DNA from: [Mycobacterium] nativiensis
Lineage (GTDB): Bacteria > Actinomycetota > Actinomycetes > Mycobacteriales > Mycobacteriaceae
Length of the DNA: 29,050 bases
Reading direction: 5' to 3'
Assembly: GCF_020172685.1 (NCBI RefSeq)
Contig: NZ_CP083986.1
Location: forward strand, 3,349,973 to 3,379,022
The notes under the pieces are model-generated. The model saw nothing but the letters and a program-made list of their open reading frames with translations, searched no databases and was not told the DNA's origin. Shown here in pieces: positions 58-14,618 of this stretch; the first letter of the stretch is position 1; each line of letters opens with the position of its first letter. Position numbers and translations under genes: made by a program.

Positions 58-564
58 ATGACCGACTCGGCCGAATTTCAATTGCGCACACCGACAGTGA
101 CCGACGGCCAGGCCATGTGGCAGATGGCTGTCGACAGCGCCACCCTCGACGTCAACTCGCCCTATGCCTATCTGCTGTGGTGCCGCGACTTCGCCCCCAC
201 CTCGGTGATCGCCGAGGTCAACGGCGTCGCGGCCGGCTTCGTGACCGGTTACCGCCGTCCGGATCAGTCGGAGACTCTGATGATCTGGCAGGTGGCGGTC
301 AATACCGCCCACCGAGGGGCGGGCTTGGCGGGCCGGATGCTCGATCATCTGGCGGCTGCACTACTGACCGACGGGGTTACCCATGTTGAGACGTCAATCA
401 CACCTGACAATGACGCGAGCCGGCGACTCTTCGCCGCTTTCGCCCGTCGGTGGGATACCGCCCTGGCCTGCTCGGAGCTGTTCGGGGCCGAATTGTTCCC
501 CGATTCTCACTTGGCCGAAAACCTGTTTCGTATCGGCCCGCTGCGGGTAGAAGAAGCGCGGTAG
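58..564 (+). CDS. ectA: L-2,4-diaminobutyrate N-acetyltransferase EctA
   Basis: A 168-aa GNAT-fold acetyltransferase. It acetylates L-2,4-diaminobutyrate with acetyl-CoA to give N-gamma-acetyldiaminobutyrate, the second step of ectoine synthesis in the cytoplasm. The N-terminal third carries the EctA signature LDVNSPYAYLLWCRDF (about residues 30-45), and the acetyl-CoA loop follows at HRGAGLAGRML (about residues 85-95). Length and motifs are normal for the family, and the context (ectB, ectC and ectD downstream on the same strand) confirms the call. The ATG at 58 fits both the protein N-terminus and a leaderless promoter box. Oddly, ectA is separated from ectB by 193 nt, whereas ectABC are usually tightly packed. 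Confidence 0.95.
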   Translation: MTDSAEFQLRTPTVTDGQAMWQMAVDSATLDVNSPYAYLLWCRDFAPTSVIAEVNGVAAGFVTGYRRPDQSETLMIWQVAVNTAHRGAGLAGRMLDHLAAALLTDGVTHVETSITPDNDASRRLFAAFARRWDTALACSELFGAELFPDSHLAENLFRIGPLRVEEAR

Positions 565-757: not shown

Positions 758-2035
758 ATGACTATTTTTGAAACCCTTGAATCCGAAGTGCGGAGCTATT
801 GCCGGTCCTGGCCGGTGACATTCGACCGGGCCAGCGGTTCCCGGATGTGGGACGTCGCCGGCAAGGAGTACGTGGACTTCTTCGCCGGCGCCGGCGCCCT
901 GAACTACGGCCACAACCATCCGGACCTGCGGGCACCGCTGCTGGACTACCTGAGCTCAGACCGGGTGGTGCACAGCCTCGACATGAACACCGTGGCCAAA
1001 GGCCAATTCCTGGAACGGTTCCAGGAGGTGATCCTCAAGCCGCGCGGGCTGAACTACAAGGTCCAGTTCCCCGGACCCACCGGCACCAACGCGGTGGAAT
1101 CGGCACTGAAGCTGGCCCGCAAGATCACCGGGCGCGAGAGCATCATCAGCTTCACCAACGCATTTCACGGCATGACGCTGGGATCGCTGAGCGTCACGGG
1201 CAATTCGATGAAACGCGGCGGCGCCGGAATTCCGCTGGTGCACGCCACGCCGATGCCCTACGACAACTACCTCGACGGTGTCACCCCCGACTTCATCTGG
1301 TTCGAACGACTGCTGCAGGACAGCGGCAGTGGTCTCAACGAGCCGGCCGCGGTGATCGTCGAGACGGTGCAGGGTGAAGGCGGGATAAATGTGGCCCGGC
1401 TGGAATGGCTGCACGGGCTGGCCGAACTCTGCAAACGTAACGACCTGCTGCTGATCGTGGACGACGTGCAGATGGGCTGCGGGCGCACCGGGCCATTCTT
1501 CAGCTTCGAGGCGGCCGACATCGTCCCGGACATCGTCTGCCTGTCCAAATCCATCAGCGGCTACGGGCTTCCGTTGGCTCTGACGTTGTTCAAGCCCGAA
1601 CTCGATGTGTGGGAACCCGGCGAGCACAACGGCACCTTCCGCGGCCAGAACCCGTCGTTCGTCACCGCCACCGCGGCGTTGAACTTCTGGACCGACAACC
1701 TGCTGGAGAAGCAGGTGCTCCGCAAGGGCGAGCAGATCGAACAGGCACTGGGCGAAGTGATCGAGCCCTTCGAGGGGGTCAAGACCCGTGGCCGCGGACT
1801 GATCCAGGGTGTGGCATTCGACCAACCCGAGCTGGCCAGTGCCGTACAGAAGGAAGCGTTCGAACGCGGCCTGCTGCTGGAGACCTCAGGACCGGAAGGC
1901 GAGGTGGTGAAGTTGATGCCACCGCTGGTGATCAACGACGACGATCTGGCCGAGGGCCTGACGATCGCAGCCGAATCGATCGAGGCAGTCGCCTCCCGGG
2001 AACTTGTCGGCACTAGCTCAGGAGTCAATCGATGA
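758..2035 (+). CDS. ectB: L-2,4-diaminobutyrate transaminase EctB
   Basis: A 425-aa class III (PLP-dependent) aminotransferase that converts aspartate-4-semialdehyde and glutamate to L-2,4-diaminobutyrate and 2-oxoglutarate, the committing step of ectoine synthesis. Visible features are the [21 protein letters not shown] phosphate-binding region (residues 106-126), the cofactor Asp in [12 protein letters not shown] (Asp235) and the Schiff-base Lys in LSKSISGYG (Lys264). Length is typical for EctB. The ATG at 758 is preceded by GGAGGA with 5-6 nt spacing, so the start is secure. The stop overlaps the ectC start (ATGA), implying coupled translation with ectC. Confidence 0.96.
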
Positions 2036-2439
2036 TCGTCCGTACCCTCGCCGAGATCAAGGGCACCGACCGCGACGTCCAAGCCAAGACCTGGAACAGT
2101 CAGCGGCTGCTGCTGGCCCGGGACGGTCAGCGCTTCTCCCTGCACGAGACGATCCTCTACGCGGGCACCGAGACCTCGATGTGGTACGCCAACCACGTCG
2201 AGGCGGTGTACTGCGTCGGCGGCGAGGGTGAGTTGATCAACGATGAGACCGGGGAGGTACACCCACTGAGCAACGGCACTATGTACCTGCTGGACGGCCA
2301 TGAGCATCACCGGGTTTCGGCCCACACCGACCTGCGCATGGTGTGCGTGTTCGACCCGCCGGTCACCGGGCAGGAAGTGCACGATGAGACCGGTGCCTAC
2401 CCTCTGCTGATCGAGGAGCCCCAGAAGGCGGCGCCGTGA
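2032..2439 (+). CDS. ectC: L-ectoine synthase EctC
   Basis: A 135-aa single-domain cupin. It cyclises N-gamma-acetyl-L-2,4-diaminobutyrate by water elimination to ectoine, a compatible solute that protects against osmotic and heat stress. The three metal ligands known from studied EctC enzymes fall at exactly the expected positions: Glu57 (NHVEAVY), Tyr85 (GTMYLLDG) and His93 (HEHHRV). Full length and intact. It starts inside the ectB stop (ATGA) and ends inside the ectD start (GTGA), so ectBCD is one translationally coupled unit. Confidence 0.97.
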
Positions 2440-3326
2440 CGACTGCGGTAACCGATCACTACCCCACCCGGAACGATGTCGCCATCGGCATCGAACCGCG
2501 CCCAGACCCGGTGGTCTGGACCCCCGAGGGCCACGGCGGCCCGTTGGGGTCCGGCGCCGTCGGCCGCTTCGACGCCGACGGCTTCCTGGCGATTGATGCG
2601 CTGGTGGACGCCGACGTGGTCGCCGACCTGCGCAACGAACTGGACAATCTGCGCGCCGACTCGGCACTGGCTGCCGACGAGCGCTCGATCTGCGAGCGGG
2701 ACAGTGGGCAGATCCGGTCGATCTTCGAGGTGCACCGGATCAGCCCGGCGTTCGCCGCGCTGGTAGCAGACCCGCGCCTGGTCGGCCCGGCCCGCCAACT
2801 GCTGGGCTCGGATGTGTACGTGCACCAGAGCAGGGTCAACTTCAAACCGGGCTTCAACGGCCGGGAGTTCTACTGGCACTCCGATTTCGAGACCTGGCAC
2901 GCCGAAGACGGCATGCCCAGCCCTCGGGCGGTCAGCGTCTCGGTGGCACTCACCGAGAACTTGGACAGCAACGGTTCGCTGATGATCATGCCCGGCTCGC
3001 ATCGCTGGTTCGTGTCGTGCCCGGGCCAGACCCCGCCGGATCACTACCGCTCGTCCTTGAAGCAACAGGAGATCGGCACCCCCGATGACGACAGCCTGAT
3101 CTGGCTGGCCGACCAGCACGGTATCCGCCAGATCACCGGCCCGGCCGGTTCCGCGGTGTTCTTCGACAGCAACTGCATGCACGGATCGAGCAGCAACATC
3201 ACGCCCTATCCGCGCTCGAACGTGTTCATCGTCTACAACAGCGTGGAGAACACCCTGGTGGAGCCCTTCGGCGCCGACGGTCCACGGCCGACGTTCATCG
3301 CCAGCCGCACCTTCGATCCGGTGTAG
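2436..3326 (+). CDS. ectD: Ectoine 5-hydroxylase EctD
   Basis: A 296-aa Fe(II)/2-oxoglutarate-dependent dioxygenase of the PhyH superfamily that hydroxylates ectoine to (4S,5S)-5-hydroxyectoine. The facial triad is visible: His148 and Asp150 in [10 protein letters not shown], and His249 in [10 protein letters not shown]. The family signature between them ([20 protein letters not shown]) is intact, and Arg260 (PYPRSN) probably binds 2-oxoglutarate. The GTG start overlaps the ectC stop by 4 nt. Its presence means that the cell should make hydroxyectoine as well as ectoine. A further gene follows 26 nt downstream. Confidence 0.96.
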
Positions 3327-3352: not shown

Positions 3353-3844
3353 GTGGCACGTTTTCTGTCCATCACGCTGACCAGTCGTGGTGTGTCGTGT
3401 CGAGCGCGGCTTCTCGATGATGCGGCCCCCAGGACCTGCGCCCTGGTCTGGGATGCGTTGCCGGTGGCGGGTCAGGCGTACCACGGCAAGTACGCCCGCA
3501 ACGAGGTCTACACGCTGCTGCCGCCGTTGGGCGCACCCGGTCGGGAGAACTCTACGGTGACGCCGATCCCCGGCGACGTCTGCTTCTTCGCCTTCGGCGC
3601 CGGTGAGATCGGCAATCCCGCGTACGGCTATGACGGAGGTGCACAGGCGAATTCACCGACGGGCGCCACCGATCTAGCGATCTTCTACGGCCGCAACAAC
3701 CTGTTGCTCAACGGCGACGTCGGGTGGGTGCCCGGCAACGTGTTCGCGACGATCGAAGACGGCCTGACCGAGATGGCAGCCGCCTGCAATGATCTGTGGA
3801 TGGCCGGTGCGATCGGCGAGAAGCTGGCTTTCGAGCGGGCTTAG
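3353..3844 (+). CDS. DUF3830 family protein (cyclophilin-like fold)
   Basis: A 163-aa protein that I assign to DUF3830 from its N-terminal hydrophobic strand, the PVAGQAYHGKYARNEVYTLLPPLG segment (about residues 37-60) and the acidic EIGNPAYGYDGGAQANSP loop. A structure of an Arthrobacter member shows a cyclophilin-like barrel, but no activity is established. The start is GTG at 3353 after AAGGGG. An out-of-frame ATG overlaps it at 3351. The gene follows ectD by 26 nt on the same strand, so it is probably transcribed with ectBCD. Its TAG overlaps the TAA of the convergent amidase gene in the four bases TTAG. It may belong functionally with the amidase/isomerase module, not with ectoine synthesis. 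Confidence 0.75.
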   Translation: MARFLSITLTSRGVSCRARLLDDAAPRTCALVWDALPVAGQAYHGKYARNEVYTLLPPLGAPGRENSTVTPIPGDVCFFAFGAGEIGNPAYGYDGGAQANSPTGATDLAIFYGRNNLLLNGDVGWVPGNVFATIEDGLTEMAAACNDLWMAGAIGEKLAFERA

Positions 3845-5211
3845 CTCAGAACCCTTTCGGCGAACAGGCCGGCCGCCAGCACCAGATCATCACTGTGCCG
3901 CGGGCCGACGATCTGCATGCCGATCGGAAGCCCGTCGGCGGTGGTACCGACCGGGATGCTCAGCGCCGGTTGCTGAGTCATGTTGAACGGGTAGGTGAAC
4001 GGCGTCCACTGGGCCCACCACCGCATGCCGGAGTCGACCGGGACGTCATGGCCGGCAGAGAATGCCGGGATGGGTGTGGTGGGTGTGATCAGTAGGTTGT
4101 GGCGTTCGTGGAACCGCCCCATGATCAATCCCAGATCGACACAGGTCTGGCGGGCGGCCAGATAATCGACCGCCGAAACGGTCAGGCCCCGCTCCCACAT
4201 GTCGGCGAGTCCGGGATCGACGAGCCCCCGGTCCTGCTCGTGACCGCGGAGGCTGCCTGCCGCGCCGGTCGCCCACAGCACCTCGAACGCGTCGATCGGA
4301 TCGGAGAAGCCGGGATCGGCCGGCACGACGTTCAGCCCCGCGTCAGCCAACGCCTGGACCGCAGCGGCGACCGCGGCCTCGATCTGCGGGTCGACGTCGA
4401 CGTAGCCCAGGGTCGGCGAGTAGGCGACATCCAGACCGATCACCTCGCGCCGGGCTTCGCCGCGGTAGGTGGTCAGCATCGCCGGCAGCGACGTCGGGTC
4501 GCGGTAGTCGGGCAGCGCGATGATGTCCATCAGCACCGCGGCATCCTCGACGGTTCGGGTGATCGGCCCCGCATGCGCCAGCGGACCGAACGGGCTGATC
4601 GGATGCATCGGGACCCGTCCGTGGGTGGGTTTGAAGCCGACCACCCCGCAGAAGCTGGCCGGGATACGGATGCTTCCTCCCCCGTCGGTGCCGATCGCCA
4701 CGGGCGCCATACCGGAGGCGACCGCGGCGGCACTGCCGCCCGAGGAACCACCGGCGGTGCGGGCGGTATTGGTGGGGTTACAGGTGATGCCGGTCCGCGG
4801 ACTGTCGGTGACGCCCTTCCACGCCAGTTCCGGAGTGGTGGTCTTACCCAGCAGCACCATGCCGTCGTCGCGCATCTTGCCCACCGCCGGGCTGTCGTCA
4901 GGCCATGGGCCGGTGGGATCGGCCAGCAGCGATCCCCGCAGGGTGGGCCAACCGGCGGTGCGGAACACATCTTTGACGGCGACCGGCACCCCGTCGAGAA
5001 GTCCCTTGGTGTAGTTGCCACTCCATCGGGCCTCGGACTTGCGCGCCGCAGACAGGGCGGCGCCCTCGTCGACCAGGCAGAAGGCGTTGACGTCGCTGTC
5101 GCGTGCGGTGATCGCCGAGAGCGCGGCCGCGGTCGCCTCGACCGGAGACAGCTCGCCGGAGGTGTAGGCGGCGACCAGTTGCAGGGCTGTCAGTTCGGTG
5201 GGGTCAGTCAT
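3841..5211 (-). CDS. Amidase signature family hydrolase
   Basis: A 456-aa amidase signature enzyme, a hydrolase of amide C-N bonds using a Ser-cisSer-Lys triad. The Lys is in VAVKDVF (about residue 75). The Gly/Ser-rich signature TAGGSSGGSAAAVASG (about residues 145-160) and DGGGSIRIPASFCGVVGFKP (about 169-188) hold the two Ser residues. Overall similarity is to GatA/AtzE-like amidases, but there is no gatB/gatC here, so a tRNA amidotransferase role is unlikely. The ATG at 5211 is chosen because GGAGG lies 8-9 nt upstream; a longer upstream reading frame would run into the preceding gene. It lies 13 nt downstream of the dehydrogenase gene in the same transcript. Substrate unknown. Confidence 0.88.
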   Translation of the reverse strand: MTDPTELTALQLVAAYTSGELSPVEATAAALSAITARDSDVNAFCLVDEGAALSAARKSEARWSGNYTKGLLDGVPVAVKDVFRTAGWPTLRGSLLADPTGPWPDDSPAVGKMRDDGMVLLGKTTTPELAWKGVTDSPRTGITCNPTNTARTAGGSSGGSAAAVASGMAPVAIGTDGGGSIRIPASFCGVVGFKPTHGRVPMHPISPFGPLAHAGPITRTVEDAAVLMDIIALPDYRDPTSLPAMLTTYRGEARREVIGLDVAYSPTLGYVDVDPQIEAAVAAAVQALADAGLNVVPADPGFSDPIDAFEVLWATGAAGSLRGHEQDRGLVDPGLADMWERGLTVSAVDYLAARQTCVDLGLIMGRFHERHNLLITPTTPIPAFSAGHDVPVDSGMRWWAQWTPFTYPFNMTQQPALSIPVGTTADGLPIGMQIVGPRHSDDLVLAAGLFAERVLS

Positions 5212-5224
5212 GTGACGCGCCTCC

Positions 5225-6190
5225 TCAACCGGATCCGCTCGTCGCCGAGGCGCGGCGCTTGTCGACCACGTTGCGCAGCGGCTCGCCGCACATGTACCGC
5301 CGGAAGTTAGTAATGAACTGCTCCTGCAACGTGTTTCGCCAACCCTTGATGTCACCGCTGTTGTGCGGGGTCAGGCGCACGTTGGGCGCGGTCCACAGCG
5401 GATGATTCGTCGGCAGCGGTTCGGGATCGACGACGTCGAGGGCTGCGCCCGCCAGTGCGCCGTTACGCAGCGCAGACACCAGCGCATCGGTGTCCACCAG
5501 CTCGCCACGGCCGACGTTGATCAGTCGCGCGGTCGGTCGCATCGCGGCCAGCACGCCGGCGTCGATCATGCCCCGGGTCTGCGACGTCAGTGGTGCGGCC
5601 AGCACCACATAGTCGGCGTCGGCGACCGCGGCGAGCAGATCGGTGGTGACGACGCCGAGATCGGGATCGTTGCGCGCTGAGCGCCCCACCCCGTGTACTG
5701 ACATCCCGACCGCGCGCAGCAACCGCGCGATGGCCCGGCCGACCGGTCCGGGCCCGACGATGGTGACCGTCGCACCGGCGATCGGCTCGGTGTCGAAATG
5801 CTGCCACCGCCCGACGCACTGGGCATCCCAGGATCGCCGGAAGTCCTTGGCGAAGGCCAGGATCTGCCCCAGCACGTACTCACCGATGGGCTCCTCGAAG
5901 ATGCCGCGGGAATTGGTGACGACGACGTCACTGGCAATCAGCTGGTCGAACATGACCGCGTCCACCCCGATCGCGGCGACCTGAACCCACCGCAGCGCAT
6001 CAGCGGCCGGCCACACCGATTCCAGTGCGCCAGAGGAGAAGTCGTAGAGGAACAGCACGTCGGTACCGCCGATCGCCGCCGCCAGCTGCGATGACGGAAC
6101 CATCCGCAGCTCCGCGTCTGCACTGATCGAATCGAGTCGAGCGGGAACCGACTCGCCGTGCTGGACAGTCACCACCGGACGCGCGTCCAC
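5225..6190 (-). CDS. D-2-hydroxyacid dehydrogenase (NAD-binding)
   Basis: A 321-aa member of the D-isomer-specific 2-hydroxyacid dehydrogenase family, which interconverts 2-oxoacids and D-2-hydroxyacids with NAD(P)H. It has the dinucleotide loop GPGPVGRAIARLL, the substrate Arg in NVGRGELVDTDAL, the Glu in DVVDPEPLP and the catalytic His in LTPHNSGD, all in the usual order. The frame is open well upstream, but GTG at 6190 gives a normal family length and lies 7 nt after a -10 box (TACCGT at 6202-6197) with TTGACA 17 nt further up, so a leaderless start is likely. GTG codons at 6175 and 6172 are alternatives. First gene of a two-gene operon with the amidase, divergent from the isomerase genes. 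Confidence 0.85.
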   Translation of the reverse strand: MDARPVVTVQHGESVPARLDSISADAELRMVPSSQLAAAIGGTDVLFLYDFSSGALESVWPAADALRWVQVAAIGVDAVMFDQLIASDVVVTNSRGIFEEPIGEYVLGQILAFAKDFRRSWDAQCVGRWQHFDTEPIAGATVTIVGPGPVGRAIARLLRAVGMSVHGVGRSARNDPDLGVVTTDLLAAVADADYVVLAAPLTSQTRGMIDAGVLAAMRPTARLINVGRGELVDTDALVSALRNGALAGAALDVVDPEPLPTNHPLWTAPNVRLTPHNSGDIKGWRNTLQEQFITNFRRYMCGEPLRNVVDKRRASATSGSG

Positions 6191-6191
6191 A

Positions 6192-6219
6192 TTGACACGG
6201 TAAAAACGGATCGTATGAT
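6192..6219 (+). promoter_or_regulatory. SigA-type promoter of the isomerase-gntR operon
   Basis: TTGACA (6192-6197), a 16-nt spacer and TATGAT (6214-6219) form a near-consensus promoter reading rightwards. Transcription would begin near 6226, about 45 nt before the ATG at 6272. This supports that ATG over the upstream in-frame ATG codons, one of which (6215) lies within the -10 itself. Confidence 0.7.
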
Positions 6220-6225
6220 TGTCAA
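6197..6225 (-). promoter_or_regulatory. SigA-type promoter of the dehydrogenase-amidase operon
   Basis: On the - strand TTGACA occupies 6225-6220 and TACCGT 6202-6197, with a 17-nt spacer. The expected start point coincides with the GTG at 6190, giving a leaderless mRNA. This promoter is almost superimposed on the opposite one, so the two are likely to compete or be jointly repressed. Confidence 0.6.
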
Positions 6226-6230
6226 CAATC
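6217..6230. promoter_or_regulatory. 14-bp palindrome, probable GntR/FCD operator
   Basis: GATTGTCAACAATC is a perfect inverted repeat with 6-bp arms around a CA centre. The GT-nn-AC core resembles operators of FadR-subgroup (FCD) GntR regulators. It overlaps the -10 of the rightward promoter and the -35 of the leftward promoter, and a GntR/FCD gene is the last gene of the rightward operon, so autoregulated control of both transcripts is the simplest reading. Confidence 0.65.
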
Positions 6231-6271
6231 CAGGGCTGGCCTGGGGGTGGAACGTCAGTGTGGGGAAACCC

Positions 6272-7039
6272 ATGGATCTGTCCCTGTTTCCAGAGTTGCC
6301 GGACTTCGACGGGCCGGTCGAACAGCGCGATGTCGGCATCATCGCGCCCTTCGATCTGGCGATCGAGCGCGAGCTGTGGCGCTGGATTCCCGCCGAGGTC
6401 ACCCTGCACCTGGCCCGCACCCACTACGAGCCGGTGCCGGTGAGCCGGGTGATGGCCGAACTCGTATCCGACACCGGCCACCTGCAGGCCGCCACCCGAG
6501 ACGTGCTGCACGTCGAGCCGGAGGTGGTCGCCTACCTGTGCTCATCGGGCAGTTTCATCCACGGCGTCGAATACGAAAAGACCCTGGTCGCCGCCATCGA
6601 ATCCGCCGGCGCCAAAGCCGCGGTCACCACCTCGGGGGCACTGGCCGAAGCGCTGATCGCGCTGAACATCTCCCGGGTGTGCGTGCTCACCCCCTACGAC
6701 GAGGAACTCACCGATCTGCTGGGGGTGTTCTTGAATCAGCTCGGAGTGACCGTGCTGCACTCGGACTATCTGGGCCTGGGCGGCGGCATCTGGAAGGTCA
6801 ACTATCGCACCGTGGCCGAACGGATCCTCGCCGCCGACCGGCCGGACGCCCAGGCGATCTTCGTCAGCTGCACCAACCTGCGCACCTACGACATCATCGC
6901 CCCGCTGGAACAGATGCTCGGCAAGCCGATCCTGACCGCTAACCAACTGACCATGTGGGCATGCCTGGGCCGGATGCGGCTGCCGATGATGGGACCGGGC
7001 CATTGGCTGCGGGATGTCTTCACCGGAGCGCCCCAATGA
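6272..7039 (+). CDS. Asp/Glu racemase superfamily protein A (maleate isomerase-like)
   Basis: A 255-aa protein of the aspartate/glutamate/hydantoin racemase superfamily, closest in pattern to maleate cis-trans isomerase and arylmalonate decarboxylase; EutA proteins of some ectoine catabolic clusters are related. Both cysteine sites of isomerases are present: AYLCSSGSF in the first half and FVSCTNLRT in the second, so a two-cysteine mechanism is possible. The start at 6272 is chosen from the promoter just upstream; GTGGGGA lies shortly before it. The stop overlaps the next gene (ATGA), which encodes a paralogue. Substrate not determinable. Members of this superfamily racemise, isomerise or decarboxylate dicarboxylates. 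Confidence 0.8.
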   Translation: MDLSLFPELPDFDGPVEQRDVGIIAPFDLAIERELWRWIPAEVTLHLARTHYEPVPVSRVMAELVSDTGHLQAATRDVLHVEPEVVAYLCSSGSFIHGVEYEKTLVAAIESAGAKAAVTTSGALAEALIALNISRVCVLTPYDEELTDLLGVFLNQLGVTVLHSDYLGLGGGIWKVNYRTVAERILAADRPDAQAIFVSCTNLRTYDIIAPLEQMLGKPILTANQLTMWACLGRMRLPMMGPGHWLRDVFTGAPQ

Positions 7040-7755
7040 GCGGCGCCGGCTGCGTAGGTTTCATCTACCCCGACCACGCAGCCGAATCCGACTACCCGCA
7101 GGCCGGGCGACTGCTGGGGGTGGAGTTGCCCGTAGCGCACATCTACGGCACCGATCTGCACGCCGTGCCGGAACTGATGGATCTGGGCAACCCCGCCAAG
7201 CTTGCCGACGGCGCCGCATTGCTGGCACCGCACCGGCCGGCCGCGGTGGTCTGGGCGTGCACGTCGGGCAGCTTCGTGTTCGGACCGCAGGGCGCCGCCG
7301 AACAGGTCGAGCAGCTGGCCGCGACAGCCGGTGTGCCCGCATCGAGCACGTCGTTCGCCTTCGTGCACGCCCTCGCCGCGTTCGGCTGCCTACACGTCGC
7401 GGTCGCCGCCAGCTACCCGCGCGACATCGCCGAACTGTTCGCGACTTTCCTTGCCGCCCACGGTGTCACCGTCGAAGCCATGGGAGACGCCGGGATCCCC
7501 ACCGCCGCTGAGGTGGGCCGCCTCACCCCGAGACAGGTCCGGGAGCTGGCGCTGCGCAATGACACGCCGACCGCGGAGGCGCTGCTGATTCCGGACACCG
7601 CCATGCATACCGTCGGCCAGGTCGACCAGCTCGAGCGCCTGCTCGGCAAACCGGTGCTGACCGCCAACACCGTGACGGTGTGGGAAGGTTTGCGTATCGC
7701 CGGAATCGTGCGGCGGACAACCGGGTTGGGCGCACTGTTCGAGGACGGGCGATGA
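7036..7755 (+). CDS. Asp/Glu racemase superfamily protein B (paralogue)
   Basis: A 239-aa paralogue of the preceding protein. The two align over the first active-site region (WACTSGSFVFGP against YLCSSGSFIHGV) and over the C-terminal part (LLGKPVLTANTVTVWEGL against MLGKPILTANQLTMWACL). The first Cys is kept, but the second is replaced: PDTAMHT stands where protein A has SCTNLRT, so Cys becomes Asp. It therefore cannot use the standard two-cysteine racemase/isomerase mechanism alone. It could be a one-cysteine enzyme, or a partner subunit of protein A. It starts in the stop of gene A and its own stop overlaps the gntR start (ATGA). Confidence 0.78.
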   Translation: MSGAGCVGFIYPDHAAESDYPQAGRLLGVELPVAHIYGTDLHAVPELMDLGNPAKLADGAALLAPHRPAAVVWACTSGSFVFGPQGAAEQVEQLAATAGVPASSTSFAFVHALAAFGCLHVAVAASYPRDIAELFATFLAAHGVTVEAMGDAGIPTAAEVGRLTPRQVRELALRNDTPTAEALLIPDTAMHTVGQVDQLERLLGKPVLTANTVTVWEGLRIAGIVRRTTGLGALFEDGR

Positions 7756-8450
7756 CACTCTCGCAGGACACCGAGTTCGAGCCGTTGGCCAGACCGTCGA
7801 CGCCGGAGCTGATCGCCGAGCGACTTCGGTACGCGATCACCCGCGGCCGACTGGCCCCCGGCCGCCAGCTCGGCGAGGCCCACCTGGCCGCGCAGTTCGA
7901 GGTGTCCCGGGGCACGCTGCGCGAGGCGATGCAGCGCCTTGTGGCCGAGGGCCTGCTGCGTAGCGAACGCAACCGCGGGATCTTCGTCGTCGAACTCACC
8001 GATGACGATGTGCGCGATGTCTACCAGGCACGCAAGACCATCGAACGGGCCGCCGTCACCGAGGTGCTGCGCAGTGACCCCGGCGCCGCCGCGACCAGGC
8101 TGCGCATTCCGGTCGAGGCGATGCGCACCGCCGCGGTCGAACGCGACCTCACCGCGATGGCCGACGCTGACCAGGAGTTCCACGAAGTGCTGGTGGAATG
8201 CGCGGGCAGCCCACGCCTGCACCGGGCGATGCGGACCCTGCTGTCGGAAACGCGCATTCTGCTCGGCGAACTCGAAGAGGTCTACTCCGACCTTCGCGAG
8301 CAGGTCACCGAACATGTTGTGCTGCGTAAGGCGATCGGGACCGGCGACGAGAGCGTCGCGGTCCGATTGATCGAGGAACACATGGACGACGCGGTGCACC
8401 GGCTGCTGGCGCGCCGAGCGTTGGCTGGGCCGGTGGCTGCGCAGCCCTGA
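7752..8450 (+). CDS. GntR family regulator, FCD (FadR) subgroup
   Basis: A 232-aa transcription factor. The N-terminal winged helix-turn-helix (about residues 18-85) has the motif EAHLAAQFEVSRGTLREAMQRLVAEGLL. The C-terminal all-helical FCD ligand domain (about 95-220) has metal/effector-site residues in FHEVLVECAG, EQVTEHVVLRKAI and EEHMDDAVHRL. FCD regulators usually sense organic acids and are displaced from DNA by the pathway substrate. Its place as last gene of the isomerase operon (4-nt overlap) and the palindrome at 6217-6230 make it the likely regulator of this module. The stop directly abuts the stop of the convergent IclR gene. Confidence 0.9.
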   Translation: MTLSQDTEFEPLARPSTPELIAERLRYAITRGRLAPGRQLGEAHLAAQFEVSRGTLREAMQRLVAEGLLRSERNRGIFVVELTDDDVRDVYQARKTIERAAVTEVLRSDPGAAATRLRIPVEAMRTAAVERDLTAMADADQEFHEVLVECAGSPRLHRAMRTLLSETRILLGELEEVYSDLREQVTEHVVLRKAIGTGDESVAVRLIEEHMDDAVHRLLARRALAGPVAAQP

Positions 8451-9269
8451 CTAGCCGATCTGGTCACCGATCTCCTTGGCGGCCTCGACCAGCAGAGCCG
8501 CCACCGCCCGGTACTGCGAACTGCTCAGTCGGTGAATCGGCGCAGCCGCATTCAGCGCCAGCAGCACGCCGGGTGCGTGCGTGGGAATGGGAACCGCGAC
8601 CGAGGCGACTCCGTCCTCACTCCCCTCCCGGTTCACCGCGTAGCCCTGTTGCCGGATGGAACTCAGCTCCAGTTGCAGCCCGGTCCTGGTACCGACCGAA
8701 TGCGCCGTAACTCGCTCGAGTTCCTCATCTGGGTACAGATGGGCGATGTCGGCATCAGACAACCGCGCCAGCAGTGCCTTGCCGGTCGAGGTGCAATGCG
8801 CTGGCATGGTGCGTCCGAGCCGTGATGCGACCCGAACGGCGGTCGGCCCCTCGGCGGCCGCGATGAAACGAACGTTGGTGCCCTCGAGAATCCCGAGATG
8901 AACTGATTCCCTGAGGCGTTCACTGAGGCGCAGCAGGACCGGCTTTACCGCACCCTCGATGTCGATGCGGTTCAACACCGAAAACCCCACGCCCATCAGC
9001 GCGGGCCCAGGGTAATACGCCTTGGACACCGGATCCTGACGCACGAAGCCCCGAAACTGCAGCATCGCCAACAGACGATGGGCCGTCGACGATGCGACGT
9101 CCAAGTGCTTCGCCGCGTCCGTCAGTCGGATTCGCGGCTGCTCTCCCAGCAGCAGGATGAGCCGCAGTGCCCTGTCCACCGACCCGATCGGATACTGCGG
9201 CACCACCGAGTCCGGTGCCGCGGGGCCAGCAGCGTCGCTCACCGGCGCCAGAGGCGTATCGCTCTGCAT
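8451..9269 (-). CDS. IclR family regulator of the aromatic operon
   Basis: A 272-aa IclR-type regulator. The N-terminal helix-turn-helix (about residues 28-90) includes RLTDAAKHLDVASSTAHRLLAMLQFRGFV. The C-terminal effector domain has typical elements TSTGKALLARLSD and QGYAVNREGSEDGVASVAVPI. IclR proteins (PcaR, PcaU, CatR) commonly control protocatechuate and aromatic acid pathways, and this gene diverges from such an operon. I prefer ATG at 9269: TAGTAT (9282-9277) lies 7 nt upstream, as for a leaderless start. GTG at 9287 would add six residues. Whether it activates or represses cannot be read from the sequence. Confidence 0.9.
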   Translation of the reverse strand: MQSDTPLAPVSDAAGPAAPDSVVPQYPIGSVDRALRLILLLGEQPRIRLTDAAKHLDVASSTAHRLLAMLQFRGFVRQDPVSKAYYPGPALMGVGFSVLNRIDIEGAVKPVLLRLSERLRESVHLGILEGTNVRFIAAAEGPTAVRVASRLGRTMPAHCTSTGKALLARLSDADIAHLYPDEELERVTAHSVGTRTGLQLELSSIRQQGYAVNREGSEDGVASVAVPIPTHAPGVLLALNAAAPIHRLSSSQYRAVAALLVEAAKEIGDQIG

Positions 9270-9326
9270 ACCAGAGATACTACCCACGACGGCCGAACCC
9301 CGTTGCTCTGAGGAGCAGAACCCAAT

Positions 9327-9343
9327 CGGGATATTTTATCCCG
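9327..9343. promoter_or_regulatory. 17-bp palindrome, candidate IclR operator
   Basis: CGGGATA-TTT-TATCCCG is a perfect inverted repeat with 7-bp arms in the 219-nt space between the IclR gene and the dioxygenase operon. Its size and location suit an IclR dimer site. The AT-rich centre stands out from the GC-rich surroundings. The rest of the space shows no other gene. Confidence 0.55.
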
Positions 9344-9362
9344 TTCTAGCAGGTCACAAGGT

Positions 9363-9395
9363 GTCAACGCGTCGAGCCGCCCCGACGTCGTTGAC
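9363..9395. promoter_or_regulatory. Second nested inverted repeat in the same control region
   Basis: GTCAACG (9363-9369) and CGTTGAC (9389-9395) form a 7-bp inverted repeat enclosing a smaller GTCG/CGAC repeat (9371-9374 / 9383-9386). It may be a second regulator site, or a hairpin in the leader of the aromatic operon. No convincing -35/-10 pair for that operon was identified. Confidence 0.3.
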
Positions 9396-9488
9396 CTTCC
9401 AACCGTCCCCCTGGCAGAGTTTTCGTCACAACCCACAGGATTTTTCTGCACAACAGATATTGCAAGCCCCCAGACTGGAGCCGCCTCA

Positions 9489-10928
9489 ATGAGTGATCAC
9501 CGCCAAGTCCTCGACGACGTCCGGCGGGGAATGATCCCAGCGCACATCTACAACGACGCCGAAATCTTCGACCTGGAAAGGGAGCGGCTCTTCCGCCGCG
9601 CCTGGATGTTCGTGGCGCATGAGTCGGAGATCCCCCAAGGCGGCGACTACGTAGTGCGACGCCTGCTCAACGACTCCTTCATCATCGCGCGCGACTCCAA
9701 GGGCGACGTGCGGGCCATGTTCAACATGTGCCTGCATCGTGGGATGCAGGTATGCCGCGCCGAGATGGGCAACGCCTCCAATTTCCGGTGCCCCTACCAC
9801 GGCTGGTCGTATCGCAATGACGGGCGCATCACCGGCCTGCCCTTCCATCAAGAGGCCTACGGCGGCGAGGCCGGTTTCTCCAAGCGAGGCCAGACGCTGT
9901 TGCCGGCGCCGAATCTGGCCAGTTACAACGGGCTGATCTTCATCAGCCTTGACCCGCAAGCTCCCCCGCTCGAGGAGTTTCTCGGCGACTTCAAGTTCTA
10001 TCTGGACTTCTACACCAAGCAGAGCCGCAGCGGTCTGGAGGTACGCGGCCCACAACGGTGGCGCATCAAAGCGAACTGGAAGATCGGCGTCGAGAACTTT
10101 GCCGGCGACATGTACCACACCCCGCATACCCACGCCTCGGTCGTCGACATCGGGCTGTTCCGCGAGCCGAAGGCGCAGAAACGCAAAGACGGTGCGACGT
10201 ATTGGGCGACGTGCGGAGGAGGCACCACCTACAAGCTGCCGCCGGGCACCTTTGAGGAACGGATGCGCTATGTCGGCTACCCCGAGGAAATGGTCCGGCG
10301 GATCAGGGAAGTGTGGTCGCCCGACCATCAGCGCGTGGTCAGCGACGACGGTTTCATGATCTCGGCAGCATCGTTGTTTCCCAACATGAGCCTGGTGCAC
10401 AACTGGCCGAAGATCCAGGACAGCGAAGATGTGTTGCCGTTCATATCGATTCGGACCTGGCAGCCGATCAGCGAGCACGAAACCGAGGTGTATTCGTGGT
10501 TTGCGGTCGACGCGGCCGCTCCCGAGCAGTTCAAGAAGGACTCCTACAAGGCCTATCTGATGTGCTTCGGCTCCACGGGCATGTTCGAACAGGATGACGT
10601 GGAGAACTGGGTCTCGCTGACCAATACCGCTGCCGGATCCATGGCCCGGCAATTACTGCTCAACGGCCGGATGGGCCTTCTCGCCGACGACACCCCGGTG
10701 GTCAATGCGTTGCCGCCCGAGCAGTTCCATGGGCCGGGCACCGCTCAAGTCGGCTATAACGAGAACAATCAGCGGGAAATTCTTCGGATGTGGGCCGATC
10801 ACCTCCAAATGCCTCCGGTAGCGACCAGCACCGCGGCAATGGGCACACAGCGCGAGGGAATCACCCCCCTGGTGCAGACCAACGGCACATCGGCATGCGA
10901 GGCGGCCCACGAGGAGGCCCAGGTATGA
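9489..10928 (+). CDS. Rieske ring-hydroxylating dioxygenase, alpha subunit
   Basis: A 479-aa catalytic subunit of an aromatic-ring dioxygenase that adds O2 to an aromatic acid to give a cis-dihydrodiol. The Rieske [2Fe-2S] ligands are Cys81 and His83 (CLHRG) and Cys101 and His104 (CPYHGW). The catalytic mononuclear iron site follows the pattern GDMYHTPHTH (Asp207, His210, His215). The ATG has GGAG 8 nt upstream. It is first in an 11-gene operon that leads to protocatechuate breakdown. With a diol dehydrogenase and a decarboxylase downstream, a phthalate-type substrate (as in PhtAa) is the best guess, but the substrate is inferred from context only. Confidence 0.92.
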   Translation: MSDHRQVLDDVRRGMIPAHIYNDAEIFDLERERLFRRAWMFVAHESEIPQGGDYVVRRLLNDSFIIARDSKGDVRAMFNMCLHRGMQVCRAEMGNASNFRCPYHGWSYRNDGRITGLPFHQEAYGGEAGFSKRGQTLLPAPNLASYNGLIFISLDPQAPPLEEFLGDFKFYLDFYTKQSRSGLEVRGPQRWRIKANWKIGVENFAGDMYHTPHTHASVVDIGLFREPKAQKRKDGATYWATCGGGTTYKLPPGTFEERMRYVGYPEEMVRRIREVWSPDHQRVVSDDGFMISAASLFPNMSLVHNWPKIQDSEDVLPFISIRTWQPISEHETEVYSWFAVDAAAPEQFKKDSYKAYLMCFGSTGMFEQDDVENWVSLTNTAAGSMARQLLLNGRMGLLADDTPVVNALPPEQFHGPGTAQVGYNENNQREILRMWADHLQMPPVATSTAAMGTQREGITPLVQTNGTSACEAAHEEAQV

Positions 10929-11551
10929 CATCGACCGAACCAAGCGCGCGGGCCGGCTTCCCCCGGCCCAGCGGTGCGGGCCATCCCTGGGAGCTCGCAG
11001 TCCTGGGAGCTCAGGCACCCAAGCAAGTCCGCACCGGCAATCCGTTGCCGTTCAACGACATCCGACACCTGCAGGCACATCAGTTCTTGGTCGATGAAGC
11101 CTACCTGCTCGACGCACAGCAGTACACCGAGTGGCTCGACACGCTGACCGAGGACATCCACTACTTCATGCCCGTTCGGGTGACCACAGCCTCAGGCGCC
11201 GGATTCGACACTTCTCCCGGCATGGCGCATTTCGATGAGAACAAGTACTCCCTGAACAGACGCGTCGCGCGCTTTGCGACCGAACACGCCTGGACCGAGG
11301 ATCCGCCGTCACGGCTGCGCCATCACATCACCAACGTGCGCACCTTTGCCTGCGACGACGACGCACACCTCATCGTCGAGTCGGCCGAATTGCTGTTCCG
11401 CAGCCGCGGCGATGTCAACGAGGCTGCGCTGATCTCCTGCGGCCGAGAAGACCTGTTGCGCCGGTGTGATCAGCAATGGAAGTTGGCGCGCCGCACGATC
11501 TATCTCGACGAGTCGGTCCTGCGCATGCAGAATCTGGCGGTGTTCCTGTGA
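10925..11551 (+). CDS. Ring-hydroxylating dioxygenase, beta subunit
   Basis: A 208-aa small subunit of the same dioxygenase, of the SnoaL/NTF2-like cone fold. It has the family pattern of an early helix region (FLVDEAYLLDAQQYTEWLDTL, about residues 58-78), then EDIHYFMPVR, and ends RRTIYLDESVLRMQNLAVFL, typical of beta-subunit C-termini. It has a structural role in the alpha3beta3 hexamer. The first 40 residues are Pro/Gly/Ala-rich and look disordered. ATG overlaps the alpha stop (ATGA) and the stop overlaps the next GTG (GTGA). Confidence 0.92.
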   Translation: MTSTEPSARAGFPRPSGAGHPWELAVLGAQAPKQVRTGNPLPFNDIRHLQAHQFLVDEAYLLDAQQYTEWLDTLTEDIHYFMPVRVTTASGAGFDTSPGMAHFDENKYSLNRRVARFATEHAWTEDPPSRLRHHITNVRTFACDDDAHLIVESAELLFRSRGDVNEAALISCGREDLLRRCDQQWKLARRTIYLDESVLRMQNLAVFL

Positions 11552-11808
11552 GCGAACTCGAAGACCTGGTCGCCCGTTCGGTGGGCGAAACCATCACTGT
11601 TGCCAACGAGTTCACCGAAATAACCGTGCGCCGGGTCGACACCCGCAACGGGTCGCGGCTGCTGATCACGTCACCGAAGTCGGGACAGTGGATCAGTCTC
11701 GACGCCCTGGAAATTGAAGCGTTGACGTGGCAGAACTCCTACACCCTGGCCGCGATGGTCGGCAAAATGCACGAACCGCTCCTCTCCGACGACAGTGAGC
11801 TGCCATGA
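11548..11808 (+). CDS. Small conserved-context protein of unknown function
   Basis: An 86-aa acidic protein that I cannot assign to a characterised family. It has no signal peptide, no cysteines and no transmembrane segment. It looks like a small beta-rich domain (ITVANEFTEITVRRVDTRNG, then SRLLITSPKSGQWISLD) followed by a short helix (EIEALTWQNSYTLAAMVGKM). It is certainly coding: GTG overlaps the beta-subunit stop, and its own stop overlaps the dehydrogenase ATG. The place between dioxygenase subunits and diol dehydrogenase suggests an accessory role. I vaguely recall such short proteins being auto-labelled dihydrodiol dehydrogenase, but it lacks any nucleotide-binding motif and is far too short for that. 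It is not a ferredoxin, having no Cys ligands. Confidence 0.8.
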   Translation: MSELEDLVARSVGETITVANEFTEITVRRVDTRNGSRLLITSPKSGQWISLDALEIEALTWQNSYTLAAMVGKMHEPLLSDDSELP

Positions 11809-12605
11809 CGGGATGGCTCGAGGGAAAACGGGCGCTGGTCGTGGGCGCCGGTTCGGGCATAGGCCGAGCAGTCGTCGACGCCTATCTCGAAGAGGGCGCC
11901 CAGGTCGCGGTATTGGAACGCGATCAGTCGAAGTGCGCGGCCCTGCAGACGCAATTGCCGGAGCTTCCGGTGACCCAGGGAGATGCGACCACGGCCGAAG
12001 CCAACGAGCGCGCCGTCGCAGCAGCCGTAGCGGCTTTCGGCGGCCTGGACACCTTGGTCACCTGCGTCGGGATCTTCGATTTCTACAAGGGAATCACCGA
12101 CATCTCGACCGAAGAGCTGGCACCGGCATTCGACGAGATGTTCACAACGAATGTGTTGAGTCATCTGCAGTCGGTGAAGGCCGCCGTCCCGGCCCTTGCG
12201 GCCCAGGAAGGGTCGTCGATCGTCCTCACCGAGTCTGCCTCGTCGTTCTATCCGGGCCGCGGGGGCGTGCTCTACGTCGCGTCGAAGTTCGCCGTGCGCG
12301 GCCTGGTCACCACCCTCGCCTACGAACTCGCCCCGCACATCCGGGTCAACGGCGTCGCACCGGGCGGAACGCTGAACACCGACCTGCGCGGTTTGAAGAA
12401 CCTGTCGCTCGACCATATCCGCCTGGACGACACCCCCAACCGTGCACGCGATCTCGTGGCACGCACCCCCCTCAATGTCGCACTCACTCCGCAGGACCAC
12501 GCCTGGAGCTACGTCTTTTTGGCATCAGAGAGGTCTCGCGGTATCACCGGCGGAAGCACGCATCCCGACGGCGGATTCGGAATGGGTTCAGGGGCTAACA
12601 CGTGA
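11805..12605 (+). CDS. cis-Dihydrodiol dehydrogenase (SDR family)
   Basis: A 266-aa short-chain dehydrogenase/reductase. It has the NAD-binding GAGSGIG loop at 14-20 and the catalytic Ser144, Tyr157 and Lys161 (ESASSFYPGRGGVLYVASK). The SSFYPGRGG stretch resembles BphB-type 2,3-dihydrodiol dehydrogenases more than generic SDRs. It would oxidise the cis-dihydrodiol made by the upstream dioxygenase to a catechol with reduction of NAD+. Full length; ATG within the preceding stop and stop within the following GTG (GTGA). Confidence 0.88.
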   Translation: MTGWLEGKRALVVGAGSGIGRAVVDAYLEEGAQVAVLERDQSKCAALQTQLPELPVTQGDATTAEANERAVAAAVAAFGGLDTLVTCVGIFDFYKGITDISTEELAPAFDEMFTTNVLSHLQSVKAAVPALAAQEGSSIVLTESASSFYPGRGGVLYVASKFAVRGLVTTLAYELAPHIRVNGVAPGGTLNTDLRGLKNLSLDHIRLDDTPNRARDLVARTPLNVALTPQDHAWSYVFLASERSRGITGGSTHPDGGFGMGSGANT

Positions 12606-13330
12606 ACACCGACGAGCTGGCGCCGTTGCGGATGGAGGTTGCGCAGGCCTGCCGAGTCGCCGCGGCTCGCGGCCTGGTCGACGGGATTCTCGGACACATC
12701 AGTGCCCGCATCGACCAAGAGCACCTCCTCATCAGGTGTCGCAGCGAGTCCGACAAGGGTGTGGCGTTCACTCGTCCCGACGACGTTCGGCTGATCCGCT
12801 TTGACGGAACACCGGGCAGGGCTGGGGAATTGGACGGATATCGGGTACCCAACGAGTTGCCGATTCACGTCGAGACGCTGCTGGCACGTCCCGAGTGCCG
12901 GGCAGTGGCCCATCTGCATCCGGCGGCCGTCGTGGCTGCCGACCTCGCAGGTATCACCATTGAACCCGTCTACGGCGCCTTCGACATCCCCGGCGCATGG
13001 CTCGCGCGCCGGGGCGTTCCGGTCTACCAGCGGGCGGTGCTGATTCGCACCGCGGAACTCGGCAAAGAGATGGTCGCCGCCATGGGAGACAAGCCGGTGG
13101 TGATCTGTCGCGGCCATGGAATCACCAGTGCCGCTGCCACGGTGCCCCAGGCTGTGCTGCAGGCCATCAGCTTGGACCAGTTGGCTTCGATGTCGCTCCG
13201 GATCCGTTCCGCGGGCGGCACGTTACGCCCGATCGAGGAATCAGATTGGGCGGACCTGCCCGACCTCGGTCCGGCATTCACCGCGGACGCCGCCTGGCGC
13301 CATGAAGTCGCCCGGTTGGAGCAGCCATGA
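12602..13330 (+). CDS. Class II aldolase/adducin-type decarboxylase (3,4-dihydroxyphthalate decarboxylase-like)
   Basis: A 242-aa class II aldolase/adducin domain protein. Metal-binding histidines are His104 and His106 (VAHLHPAAVV) and probably His172 (CRGHGI). Class II aldolase-fold decarboxylases such as PhtC remove CO2 from dihydroxyphthalate to give protocatechuate. The flanking genes (diol dehydrogenase before, protocatechuate 3,4-dioxygenase after) place this protein at exactly that step, so decarboxylation is more likely than aldol cleavage. GTG start in a 4-nt overlap; the stop overlaps pcaH (ATGA). Exact substrate (3,4- or 4,5-dihydroxyphthalate, or another isomer) is inferred. Confidence 0.78.
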   Translation: MNTDELAPLRMEVAQACRVAAARGLVDGILGHISARIDQEHLLIRCRSESDKGVAFTRPDDVRLIRFDGTPGRAGELDGYRVPNELPIHVETLLARPECRAVAHLHPAAVVAADLAGITIEPVYGAFDIPGAWLARRGVPVYQRAVLIRTAELGKEMVAAMGDKPVVICRGHGITSAAATVPQAVLQAISLDQLASMSLRIRSAGGTLRPIEESDWADLPDLGPAFTADAAWRHEVARLEQP

Positions 13331-14073: not shown

Positions 14074-14618
14074 CTAGGCTCACGGCCACGCCCGGGCAGA
14101 CCATCGGCCCCTTCTTCGGCTACGCGTTGCCGTTCGACCACGGCAACGAACTCGTGCCCCCTGGCTCGCCCGGTGCCATCGCCCTGCACGGCACCGTCAT
14201 CGACGGCGCCGGGGCTCCGGTTCCCGATGCGCTGCTGGAGATCTGGCAGGCAGATGCGGACGGTTCCGTGTCGACCTCCAGTTCACTTCGCCGCGACGGC
14301 GACACCTTCACCGGGTGGGGACGCGCCGCGACAGATGCCGATGGCCACTACTGCTTCACGACGGTGAGACCCGGGGCACCCCAAGAGTCGACGCCATTCA
14401 TCGCCGTCGCCGTGTTTGCGCGGGGCCTGCTGAACCGGCTGTTCACCCGTGCCTATCTGCCCGGTGATCAACTGCACGCAGACCGACTGTTGAACTCCGT
14501 GGCGGTTGACCGTCGTCATACGCTCATCGCGGTGCCCGACGAGCATGGCTTTCGATTCGACATCAGGCTGCAGGGCGCCGACGAGACGGTATTCCTGCGC
14601 TATCGGGGGCAACCATGA
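14070..14618 (+). CDS. pcaG: Protocatechuate 3,4-dioxygenase alpha subunit
   Basis: A 182-aa intradiol-dioxygenase-like subunit without the complete iron ligand set, as expected for the alpha chain. It starts with the typical TPGQTIGPFFGYALPF segment and shares with PcaH the LLEIWQADADG motif, in place of PcaH's LVEIWQANASG. The alpha chain shapes the substrate pocket. ATG at 14070 lies in the pcaH stop; the longer open frame upstream overlaps pcaH and is not used. Confidence 0.94.
   Translation: MTRLTATPGQTIGPFFGYALPFDHGNELVPPGSPGAIALHGTVIDGAGAPVPDALLEIWQADADGSVSTSSSLRRDGDTFTGWGRAATDADGHYCFTTVRPGAPQESTPFIAVAVFARGLLNRLFTRAYLPGDQLHADRLLNSVAVDRRHTLIAVPDEHGFRFDIRLQGADETVFLRYRGQP

Follow-up and report, generated by a model that had tools for sequence, protein, structure and literature searches.

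Ectoines are common bacterial stress protectants and are made by many actinobacteria. In Proteobacteria, their breakdown is encoded by ehuABCD or uehABC-eutABCDE-atf-ssd clusters and by DoeABCD. EutD and EutE form the catalytic core, EutABC is needed for 5-hydroxyectoine through steps that are uncertain (PMC5924519, PMC8739950), EutA belongs to the same superfamily as arylmalonate decarboxylase (AMDase) (PMC4996985), and MocR-type EutR regulons are described in Proteobacteria (PMC5320631); ehu genes of Mycobacterium smegmatis (PMC11001197, PMC10454040) and the regulation of ect genes by GlnR (PMC10704036) are also mentioned. Putative Gram-positive ectoine clusters have been found from EutD and EutB seeds, and eutE was reported absent from the Bacillaceae examined (PMC13188858). 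Here we analyze a gene module at positions 3353 to 8450 of a 29,050-nucleotide (nt) stretch of the genome of [Mycobacterium] nativiensis (contig NZ_CP083986.1, positions 3,349,973 to 3,379,022, assembly GCF_020172685.1), hereafter the window. It combines a DUF3830 protein, an amidase, a D-2-hydroxyacid dehydrogenase (HADH), twin EutA/AMDase-like enzymes (amd1 and amd2) and an FCD-family GntR regulator, and it directly adjoins ectABCD.

We propose, with a probability of roughly 80%, that these genes form the core of a regulon, controlled by the FCD-GntR, for the breakdown of ectoine or 5-hydroxyectoine, a figure that covers the substrate class and the direction of the pathway. Most probably, the substrate is 5-hydroxyectoine rather than ectoine. 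We favor (hydroxy)ectoine because the module co-occurs with the ectoine 5-hydroxylase EctD, because EhuABCD and DoeA-like genes lie inside homologous clusters, and because these genes share a predicted operator. What the computations yielded directly is a conserved palindrome with its genes, the co-occurrence with EctD, the Ehu and DoeA-like links, and conserved active-site residues. Judged from sequence, the gene set fails membership of EutDE-type clusters yet probably acts on the same substrate class. The first-pass annotation of this DNA had taken the absence of EutD and EutE as an argument against an ectoine role; the three lines of evidence named above point to (hydroxy)ectoine instead. 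Its view of a catabolic module stands as regards co-conservation, hydrolase and 2-hydroxyacid/dicarboxylate-type chemistry and a dedicated GntR; its conclusion against an ectoine role is not supported. The features are as follows.

3353..8450 holds the six module genes and the palindrome:
3353..3844, plus strand: DUF3830 protein with a cyclophilin-like fold (PF12903, 213 bits against a cut-off of 26), 26 nt 3' of ectD on the same strand.
3841..5211, minus strand: amidase-signature amidase (PF01425; NCBIfam NF004815, 702 bits against a cut-off of 506).
5225..6190, minus strand: D-2-hydroxyacid dehydrogenase, HADH (PF02826, 2-Hacid_dh_C, 174 bits); the GTG start is a best guess.
6218..6229, no strand: palindrome ATTGTCAACAAT, predicted FCD-GntR operator, within the divergent HADH/amd1 gap.
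6272..7039, plus strand: amd1, EutA/maleate isomerase-like, with both cysteines (C90, C200) (PF17645, Amdase).
7036..7755, plus strand: amd2, AMDase/EutA-like, with C75 and with Asp187 replacing the second cysteine (PF17645, Amdase).
7752..8450, plus strand: gntR, FCD-family GntR regulator (PF00392 and PF07729).
The adjoining ectoine genes are:
58..564, plus strand: ectA-like acetyltransferase (GNAT, by Pfam), with orthologues in loci L021, L059, L060 and L061.
758..2035, plus strand: ectB, class III aminotransferase (PF00202), 88-93% identical in L021, L059, L060 and L061.
2032..2439, plus strand: ectC, ectoine synthase (PF06339, 185 bits).
2436..3326, plus strand: ectD, ectoine 5-hydroxylase (TIGR02408, 423 bits, passing the cut-off of 336.5).

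Family profiles bore out all six gene assignments of the first-pass annotation, and the 4-nt overlaps, the shared divergent control region and the adjacency to the ectoine operon were likewise upheld. After the starts of amidase, HADH, amd1, amd2 and gntR had been refined from sequence, the overlaps between amd1 and amd2, between amd2 and gntR, and at the convergent ends of the DUF3830 and amidase genes are genuine, as is the divergent HADH/amd1 gap, a shared control region with one perfect palindrome inside. The amd1/amd2 pair scored 81 and 80 bits against PF17645, and the gntR product 75 bits for the FCD domain and 68 bits for the GntR domain.

The gene set is widely conserved. Of 397 genomes from the order, 79 encode an amd2-type protein (E ≤1e-60), as do 24 of 396 sampled from the phylum (E ≤1e-50) and 39 of 198 from the genus; the order and phylum samples overlap. 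Within 78 order-level loci, defined as up to 20 kb around amd2 and counted at set identity thresholds (the window, the 79th, is not counted), gntR occurs in 78, HADH in 77, amidase in 74, amd1 in 71 and DUF3830 in 62; all six families stand together in 56 loci and at least five in 73, so the six-gene arrangement is far beyond chance. Furthermore, 57 of these loci hold a class III aminotransferase, 53 a dehydrogenase of the succinate-semialdehyde dehydrogenase (SSADH) type and 33 a tartrate-dehydrogenase-like gene, one member of which exceeds the TIGR02089 cut-off (485 against 470 bits). Among the best 80 of at least 540 named loci, which come from Mycobacterium, Mycolicibacter, Mycobacteroides, Rhodococcus, Nocardia, Amycolatopsis and related genera, the counts are gntR 80, HADH 79, amidase 78, amd1 77, DUF3830 67, aminotransferase 63, SSADH 56 and tartrate-dehydrogenase-like gene 44. 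The set thins out in the 18 loci from other orders or classes (HADH 14, amd1 12, amidase 12, DUF3830 11, gntR 8, aminotransferase 3, SSADH 1). The most constant parts of the module are amd2, HADH and GntR.

A frequent long form reads tartrate dehydrogenase, SSADH, aminotransferase, DUF3830, amidase, HADH, amd1, amd2, gntR. Judged by the nearest named amd2 loci (82-88% identical), the source of the window resembles the Mycolicibacter (M. terrae) group, and in the clade of the window (L021, L059-L061) ectABCD stands where relatives have the tartrate dehydrogenase, SSADH and aminotransferase genes. The module thus reaches past the six genes of the first-pass annotation, many relatives adding the aminotransferase, the SSADH-type dehydrogenase and the tartrate-dehydrogenase-like enzyme. 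The co-conservation of DUF3830 and amidase with the isomerase-like enzymes, on which that annotation had staked its module, holds: beyond the amidase count given above, the eight DUF3830 genomes among the first 60 of the genus (G000, G011, G018, G021, G022, G033, G049 and G050) are the same eight of G000-G059 that are listed with amd2, taking all 60 as within the 198, and because the two sets coincide we regard DUF3830, amidase and the twin enzymes as co-conserved. On plasmid records, a DUF3830 query gave a single distant match and an amd2 query 377 records, all below 60% identity (40 are listed, at ~30-32%, mostly named EutA where annotated), so that annotated plasmids yielded no homologous module.

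The first line of evidence is a palindrome shared by these genes. Taken alone, the window site is unremarkable: ATTGTNNACAAT is the single perfect 12-mer in the window (6218-6229), one site being found against 0.17 expected at up to one mismatch, with 17 of 100 shuffles containing one. It is its conservation that is remarkable. In 184 loci totaling 3.58 Mb, in which some genomes or species are represented by both a named and a G locus, the core TTGTNNACAA occurs 388 times where base composition predicts ~6. The runner-up among 32 control half-sites reaches 26 and the median is 5, and 377 of the 388 copies lie near the start of a module gene. Indeed, the core is found in every divergent HADH/amd1 gap identified (76/76 named, 52/52 order-level) and in every SSADH/aminotransferase gap (54/54 named, 50/50 order-level). 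Perfect 12-mers also lie 5' of ehuB (L139, L158), doeA (L158) and a ProP-like transporter gene (L139, L151); in L152 and L154, one is located where a BCCT gene starts. The divergent gap of L150 has no perfect palindrome, and within the window none was found 5' of ectA or ectD. FCD/FadR operators have a general shape that the palindrome fits; from this shape and from its constant presence beside the module, we infer that the FCD-GntR is the protein that binds it.

The co-occurrence with EctD is the second line of evidence. EctD (TIGR02408) was found in 114 of the 397 order genomes at E ≤1e-60, 111 of them over the curated cut-off. It is present in 77 of 79 amd2 carriers (76 over the cut-off) versus 37 of 318 non-carriers in the order (Fisher 9e-51), and in 38 of 39 carriers versus 31 of 159 others in the genus (Fisher 1.6e-20), values that count related genomes as independent and take no account of genome size, which weighs against our proposal. 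In a subset of 40 of the 79 carriers searched, 39 had EctD. The amd2 proteins of 14 genus sequences fall into three groups that are only 53-72% identical to each other; therefore, the EctD pattern is common to several lineages. Physical linkage is mostly absent: apart from the window, only 5 of the 78 order loci as fetched contain ectD. Both this and the divergence of the amd2 groups favor a real association, and we dropped ect adjacency as a general feature. A stand-alone EctD, with no ectABC beside it, is next to the module gntR in Rhodococcus (L063, L064, L067 of Rhodococcus jostii, L089; two were scored, at 419 and 413 bits against 336.5, and both pass) and in G411 (422 bits).

That such a correlation might reflect lifestyle has to be weighed at this point. 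The module could degrade a small amide or hydroxy-dicarboxylate that has nothing to do with ectoine, and the EctD link would then arise from free-living, desiccation-exposed habits and large genomes. The family names suit generic amide or dicarboxylate chemistry, in most carriers the module has no ect gene as a neighbor, several carriers lack DUF3830 or EctD, and the association takes no account of genome size. We nevertheless consider this explanation improbable, since EctD accompanies nearly all carriers in both the order and the genus and across several module lineages, and since curated EhuABCD and DoeA-like genes are found within the clusters and follow the same palindrome. Analogies to nicotinate/maleamate, hydantoin and mandelamide-type pathways, for which there is no supporting neighbor gene, were dropped. 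A biosynthetic or osmotic role, in which the module would tailor or protect the solute and degrade nothing, appears very improbable: it could draw on the DUF3830 gene 26 nt after ectD on the same strand in the window and on the EctD that stands alone beside the module in Rhodococcus, against which several carriers have no EctD at all and the dedicated GntR with its palindrome, the import transporters, the SSADH, the aminotransferase and the dehydrogenases are of catabolic type.

The third line of evidence, to which we now return for the (hydroxy)ectoine regulon, comes from neighboring genes. A tblastn search with the annotated ehu and eut genes of Rhizobium etli revealed EhuABCD-like sets beside amd2 in L139, L158 and L140-L149, the last being ten loci of a genus labeled g87; L135, L153 and L182 hold partial sets. 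Curated scoring, limited to the subunits named here from L139, L148 and L158, placed all of them over the equivalog cut-offs: EhuA 357, EhuB 277, EhuC 223 and EhuD 279 bits in L148, EhuA 376 and EhuB 267 in L139, and EhuB 264 in L158. DoeA-like proteins of 43-45% identity lie within the clusters of G033, G181, G379 and G915, and a tight order amd1-doeA-pyridoxal phosphate protein-M20 deacylase with small gaps is found in L020, L158 and L243; in G033 (L020), amd2 itself is ~37 kb from the amd1-doeA cluster. Eight amd2 carriers were without EctD in our searches (G063, G181, G915, G454, G509, G540, G604 and G709). In seven of these, the module contains or adjoins a gene for an osmolyte-type transporter, namely Ehu (G181, G454), BCCT (G509, G604, G709) or ProP-like (G540, G915), and the eighth, G063, has a 36% match only. 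The BCCT protein of L152, at 510 against a cut-off of 408, passes a BCCT subfamily model, and the remaining two match it at 70 and 90%; the ProP-like transporters scored are under the ProP equivalog cut-off.

The EutD/EutE route itself is mostly missing from the carriers tested. DoeA was found in 5 of 40 carriers searched (E ≤1e-20), only one above 40% identity, and DoeB in 1 of 40, as a weak match. In the loci of relatives longer than 5 kb, the extent of that search, eutB, eutC and doeB gave no tblastn match (E ≤1e-12). These numbers bear on a further explanation, that the module does only the job of EutABC, the processing of the 5-hydroxyl, with ring opening and deacetylation left to unlinked enzymes too diverged for our searches, such that only the hydroxyl branch would be new. 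EutABC is reported to be necessary for 5-hydroxyectoine use, its exact steps being uncertain (PMC8739950), and amd2 is accompanied most constantly by GntR and HADH (78 and 77 of 78 loci), not by the hydrolases. Where a cluster includes a DoeA-like gene and an M20 deacylase, amidase and amd1 are still retained, so that these may do different work. On the other side, amidase and DUF3830 are present in 74 and 62 of the 78 order-level loci, and 35 of the 40 carriers searched have no DoeA match; on balance, we regard a purely EutABC-like function as possible and somewhat unlikely.

Several further observations count against a (hydroxy)ectoine regulon. The genome under study has no match to EutD/DoeA (E ≤1e-20) or EutE/DoeB (E ≤1e-10), in agreement with the absence noted in the first-pass annotation, so that only candidate enzymes can be named for ring opening. 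Three DoeA-like proteins (L020, L158, L172) have ectoine hydrolase as their best family yet score 389-419 against the TIGR02993 cut-off of 613. No importer gene was seen adjoining the module within the window. DUF3830 was not found genome-wide in G399, G418 and G422, nor in six g87 carriers with reduced clusters, and the loci of G084, G093, G102 and G294 yielded neither amidase nor amd1; the hydrolase candidates are thus not universal, which argues against a fixed role for them. (Of 14 order-level carriers with no DUF3830 in the locus, 11 have one elsewhere in the genome.) The ten g87 loci (L140-L149) have no palindrome at up to one mismatch, and four of them (L140, L141, L146, L147) have altered amd2 motifs. 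Among the 18 carriers from other orders or classes, EctD is present in only 13, ten of which are of one genus. Finally, ectC occurs in 55 of the 156 genomes of the genus searched for it, and G002 is the only one of these without EctD. Ectoine and 5-hydroxyectoine are therefore inseparable in the genus, and we dropped ectC-only genomes as a way to separate the two.

The enzymes themselves carry conserved catalytic residues. In amd1, C90 and C200 are kept in at least 95% of 153 sequences, as are C75 and D187 of amd2 in at least 95% of 181 sequences (motif counts 169/180 and 176/180). Both proteins are related to EutA but fall outside its equivalog family TIGR02990 (98.7 bits for amd1 and 103.1 for amd2, against a cut-off of 318), and amd2 scores 79 bits against the AMDase family NF052327, under its cut-off of 225. 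Among proteins of solved structure, AMDase is the closest to amd2. In Foldseek, an amd2 model with a predicted local distance difference test (pLDDT) score of 93 matched AMDase and maleate isomerase, AlphaFold models having served for fold comparison only. In place of the Gly74 and Cys188 of AMDase, amd2 has Cys and Asp, and the top sequence match of the amd2 profile, second in Foldseek, is the Gly74Cys/Cys188Ser mutant 3ixl. This AMDase mutant reportedly has inverted stereochemistry. In the amidase, K80, S156 and S180, which we take to be the Lys-Ser-Ser triad of the amidase signature family, are kept in at least 95% of 169 sequences, and in HADH the presumed Arg-Glu-His catalytic residues of D-2-hydroxyacid dehydrogenases (R230, E259 and H278, numbered in the 323-residue reading) are kept in at least 95% of 174 sequences. 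Among solved structures the amidase had no match at E ≤1e-50. DUF3830 has a solved homologue, 3kop from Arthrobacter (227 bits, ~61% identity across the whole protein), after which its model (pLDDT 92) matched the Pictet-Spenglerases KslB and McbB (E from ~3e-6) and the atypical cyclophilin TM1367. Its invariant charged or polar residues in 19 sequences include H44, R49, E51, E65, D75, D107, R114 and D122, as expected of an enzyme.

Our working model, in which we infer the ring-opening enzyme, the assignment of enzymes to steps and the order of these steps, would run as follows. Cells may recycle the solute made by their own EctABCD or, in relatives, a solute imported by Ehu, BCCT or ProP-like transporters. 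Opening of the cyclic amidine and deacetylation would fall to DUF3830 and/or the amidase and yield hydroxy-2,4-diaminobutyrate. The class III aminotransferase, which resembles gamma-aminobutyrate transaminase, and the SSADH-type dehydrogenase, both beside the module in relatives, would then convert the 4-amino end to a carboxylate; EctB acting in reverse could replace the aminotransferase. The product would be a C4 dicarboxylate that keeps the hydroxyl, of the 3-hydroxyaspartate or tartrate type, on which amd1 (Cys/Cys) and amd2 (Cys/Asp) may set the stereochemistry at the acidic carbon before HADH and the tartrate-dehydrogenase-like enzyme oxidize and decarboxylate it. GntR would repress from ATTGTNNACAAT until an intermediate accumulates. 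We are doubtful about the specific chemistry, in which the hydroxyl is retained and the Cys/Cys and Cys/Asp pair, HADH and the tartrate-dehydrogenase-like enzyme work via 3-hydroxyaspartate or tartrate-type acids, and offer it as a speculative and rather unlikely version.

The genome contains a near-complete second copy of the module directly upstream of the ectA of the window, comprising the end of ectC, ectD, DUF3830, amidase, HADH, amd1 and amd2 (L015:13757-19144), with proteins 81-93% identical to those of the window copy and with the same palindrome (L015:17674). Compared with L021/L059, the upstream copy is 95-96% (DUF3830) and 94-97% (amidase) identical and the window copy 86-90%. Because the upstream copy is closer to the L021/L059 copies than the window copy is, we rejected a recent local duplication, and the two look xenologous and not freshly duplicated.

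A number of variations accompany homologous clusters. In six g87 loci (L140, L141, L145, L146, L147, L149), Ehu-like genes stand beside a shrunken module (amd2 with or without HADH) in genomes with no DUF3830, as if the pathway were decaying. Some Amycolatopsis and others (L121, L125, L126, L127, L196, L222) have a GlcD-like flavin enzyme and a thiamine pyrophosphate enzyme after the aminotransferase/DUF3830 part, the latter matching NF005760, acetolactate synthase by name, when scored in L126. One distant actinobacterial family has a glutamate-dehydrogenase-like gene within the module (L150, L151, L152, L154; the L154 score is under the cut-off), preceded directly by a perfect palindrome in L151 and L154, and L151 also encodes a distant DoeA_2-like M24 protein, 28% identical to DoeA. 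A stand-alone EctD is beside the module gntR in L175 too, and an MFS gene akin to Cmx/CmrA-type exporters lies two genes further in the Rhodococcus EctD loci and also near in L175 (L064 is under the family cut-off).

On the other flank, we left the following gene out of the module:
8451-9287: IclR gene that looks like a regulator of the downstream aromatic genes.
Its product resembles BhcR- and PcaR/PcaU-type regulators, with scores under their cut-offs, and borders protocatechuate-pathway genes. Window positions 8451-18301 form an aromatic (protocatechuate branch) set of this IclR gene, Rieske dioxygenase alpha and beta subunits, a short-chain dehydrogenase/reductase, a class II aldolase, two protocatechuate-dioxygenase-type subunits, a lyase, a hydrolase/carboxymuconolactone decarboxylase (CMD) fusion and two CoA-transferase subunits.

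If the proposed regulon is correct, DUF3830 and the EutA-like twins gain a candidate substrate, the module offers a natural comparison for the EutABC steps in 5-hydroxyectoine use, which are described as uncertain (PMC8739950), and adjacent synthesis and breakdown genes raise the question of how producers avoid futile cycling. Because ectoine breakdown is usually recognized by EutD, the regulon would mostly be missed by EutD-based genome searches, and probably also by the 2026 survey seeded with EutD and EutB (PMC13188858). In a literature search that covered neither most subscription papers nor any bioRxiv preprints, we found no earlier description of the cluster and no experiment on it; none of the papers searched contains DUF3830 or joins ectoine with both maleate isomerase and amidase. 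The main text of PMC13188858 does not use the words amidase, DUF, hydroxyacid or maleate, and an overlap is possible for EutD-bearing members. Its Gram-positive clusters resemble ours in that the same phylum is included and catabolism was inferred from gene context.

The known systems nearest to single module proteins are AMDase and the DUF3830 structure 3kop. The amd2 protein is a fold and sequence relative of AMDase, and its cysteine pattern, with Cys at 74 and none at 188, matches the engineered mutant 3ixl, whereas it has Asp where AMDase has Cys188. DUF3830 shares ~61% identity and the cyclophilin-like fold with 3kop, a protein named only by its fold, and its next fold neighbors, KslB and McbB, are ring-forming enzymes. 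Compared with the proteobacterial cluster as a whole, the module has in common an EutA-like enzyme, a GntR-superfamily regulator, in many members also a class III aminotransferase with an SSADH-type dehydrogenase, the EhuABCD importer in several and a DoeA-like hydrolase in four (G033, G181, G379, G915). It differs in that no DoeB, EutB or EutC match was found in the loci searched, DoeA being mostly absent, and in that an FCD-type GntR takes the place of the MocR-type EnuR. The module has twin EutA-like enzymes, DUF3830, the amidase, HADH and the tartrate-dehydrogenase-like gene instead.

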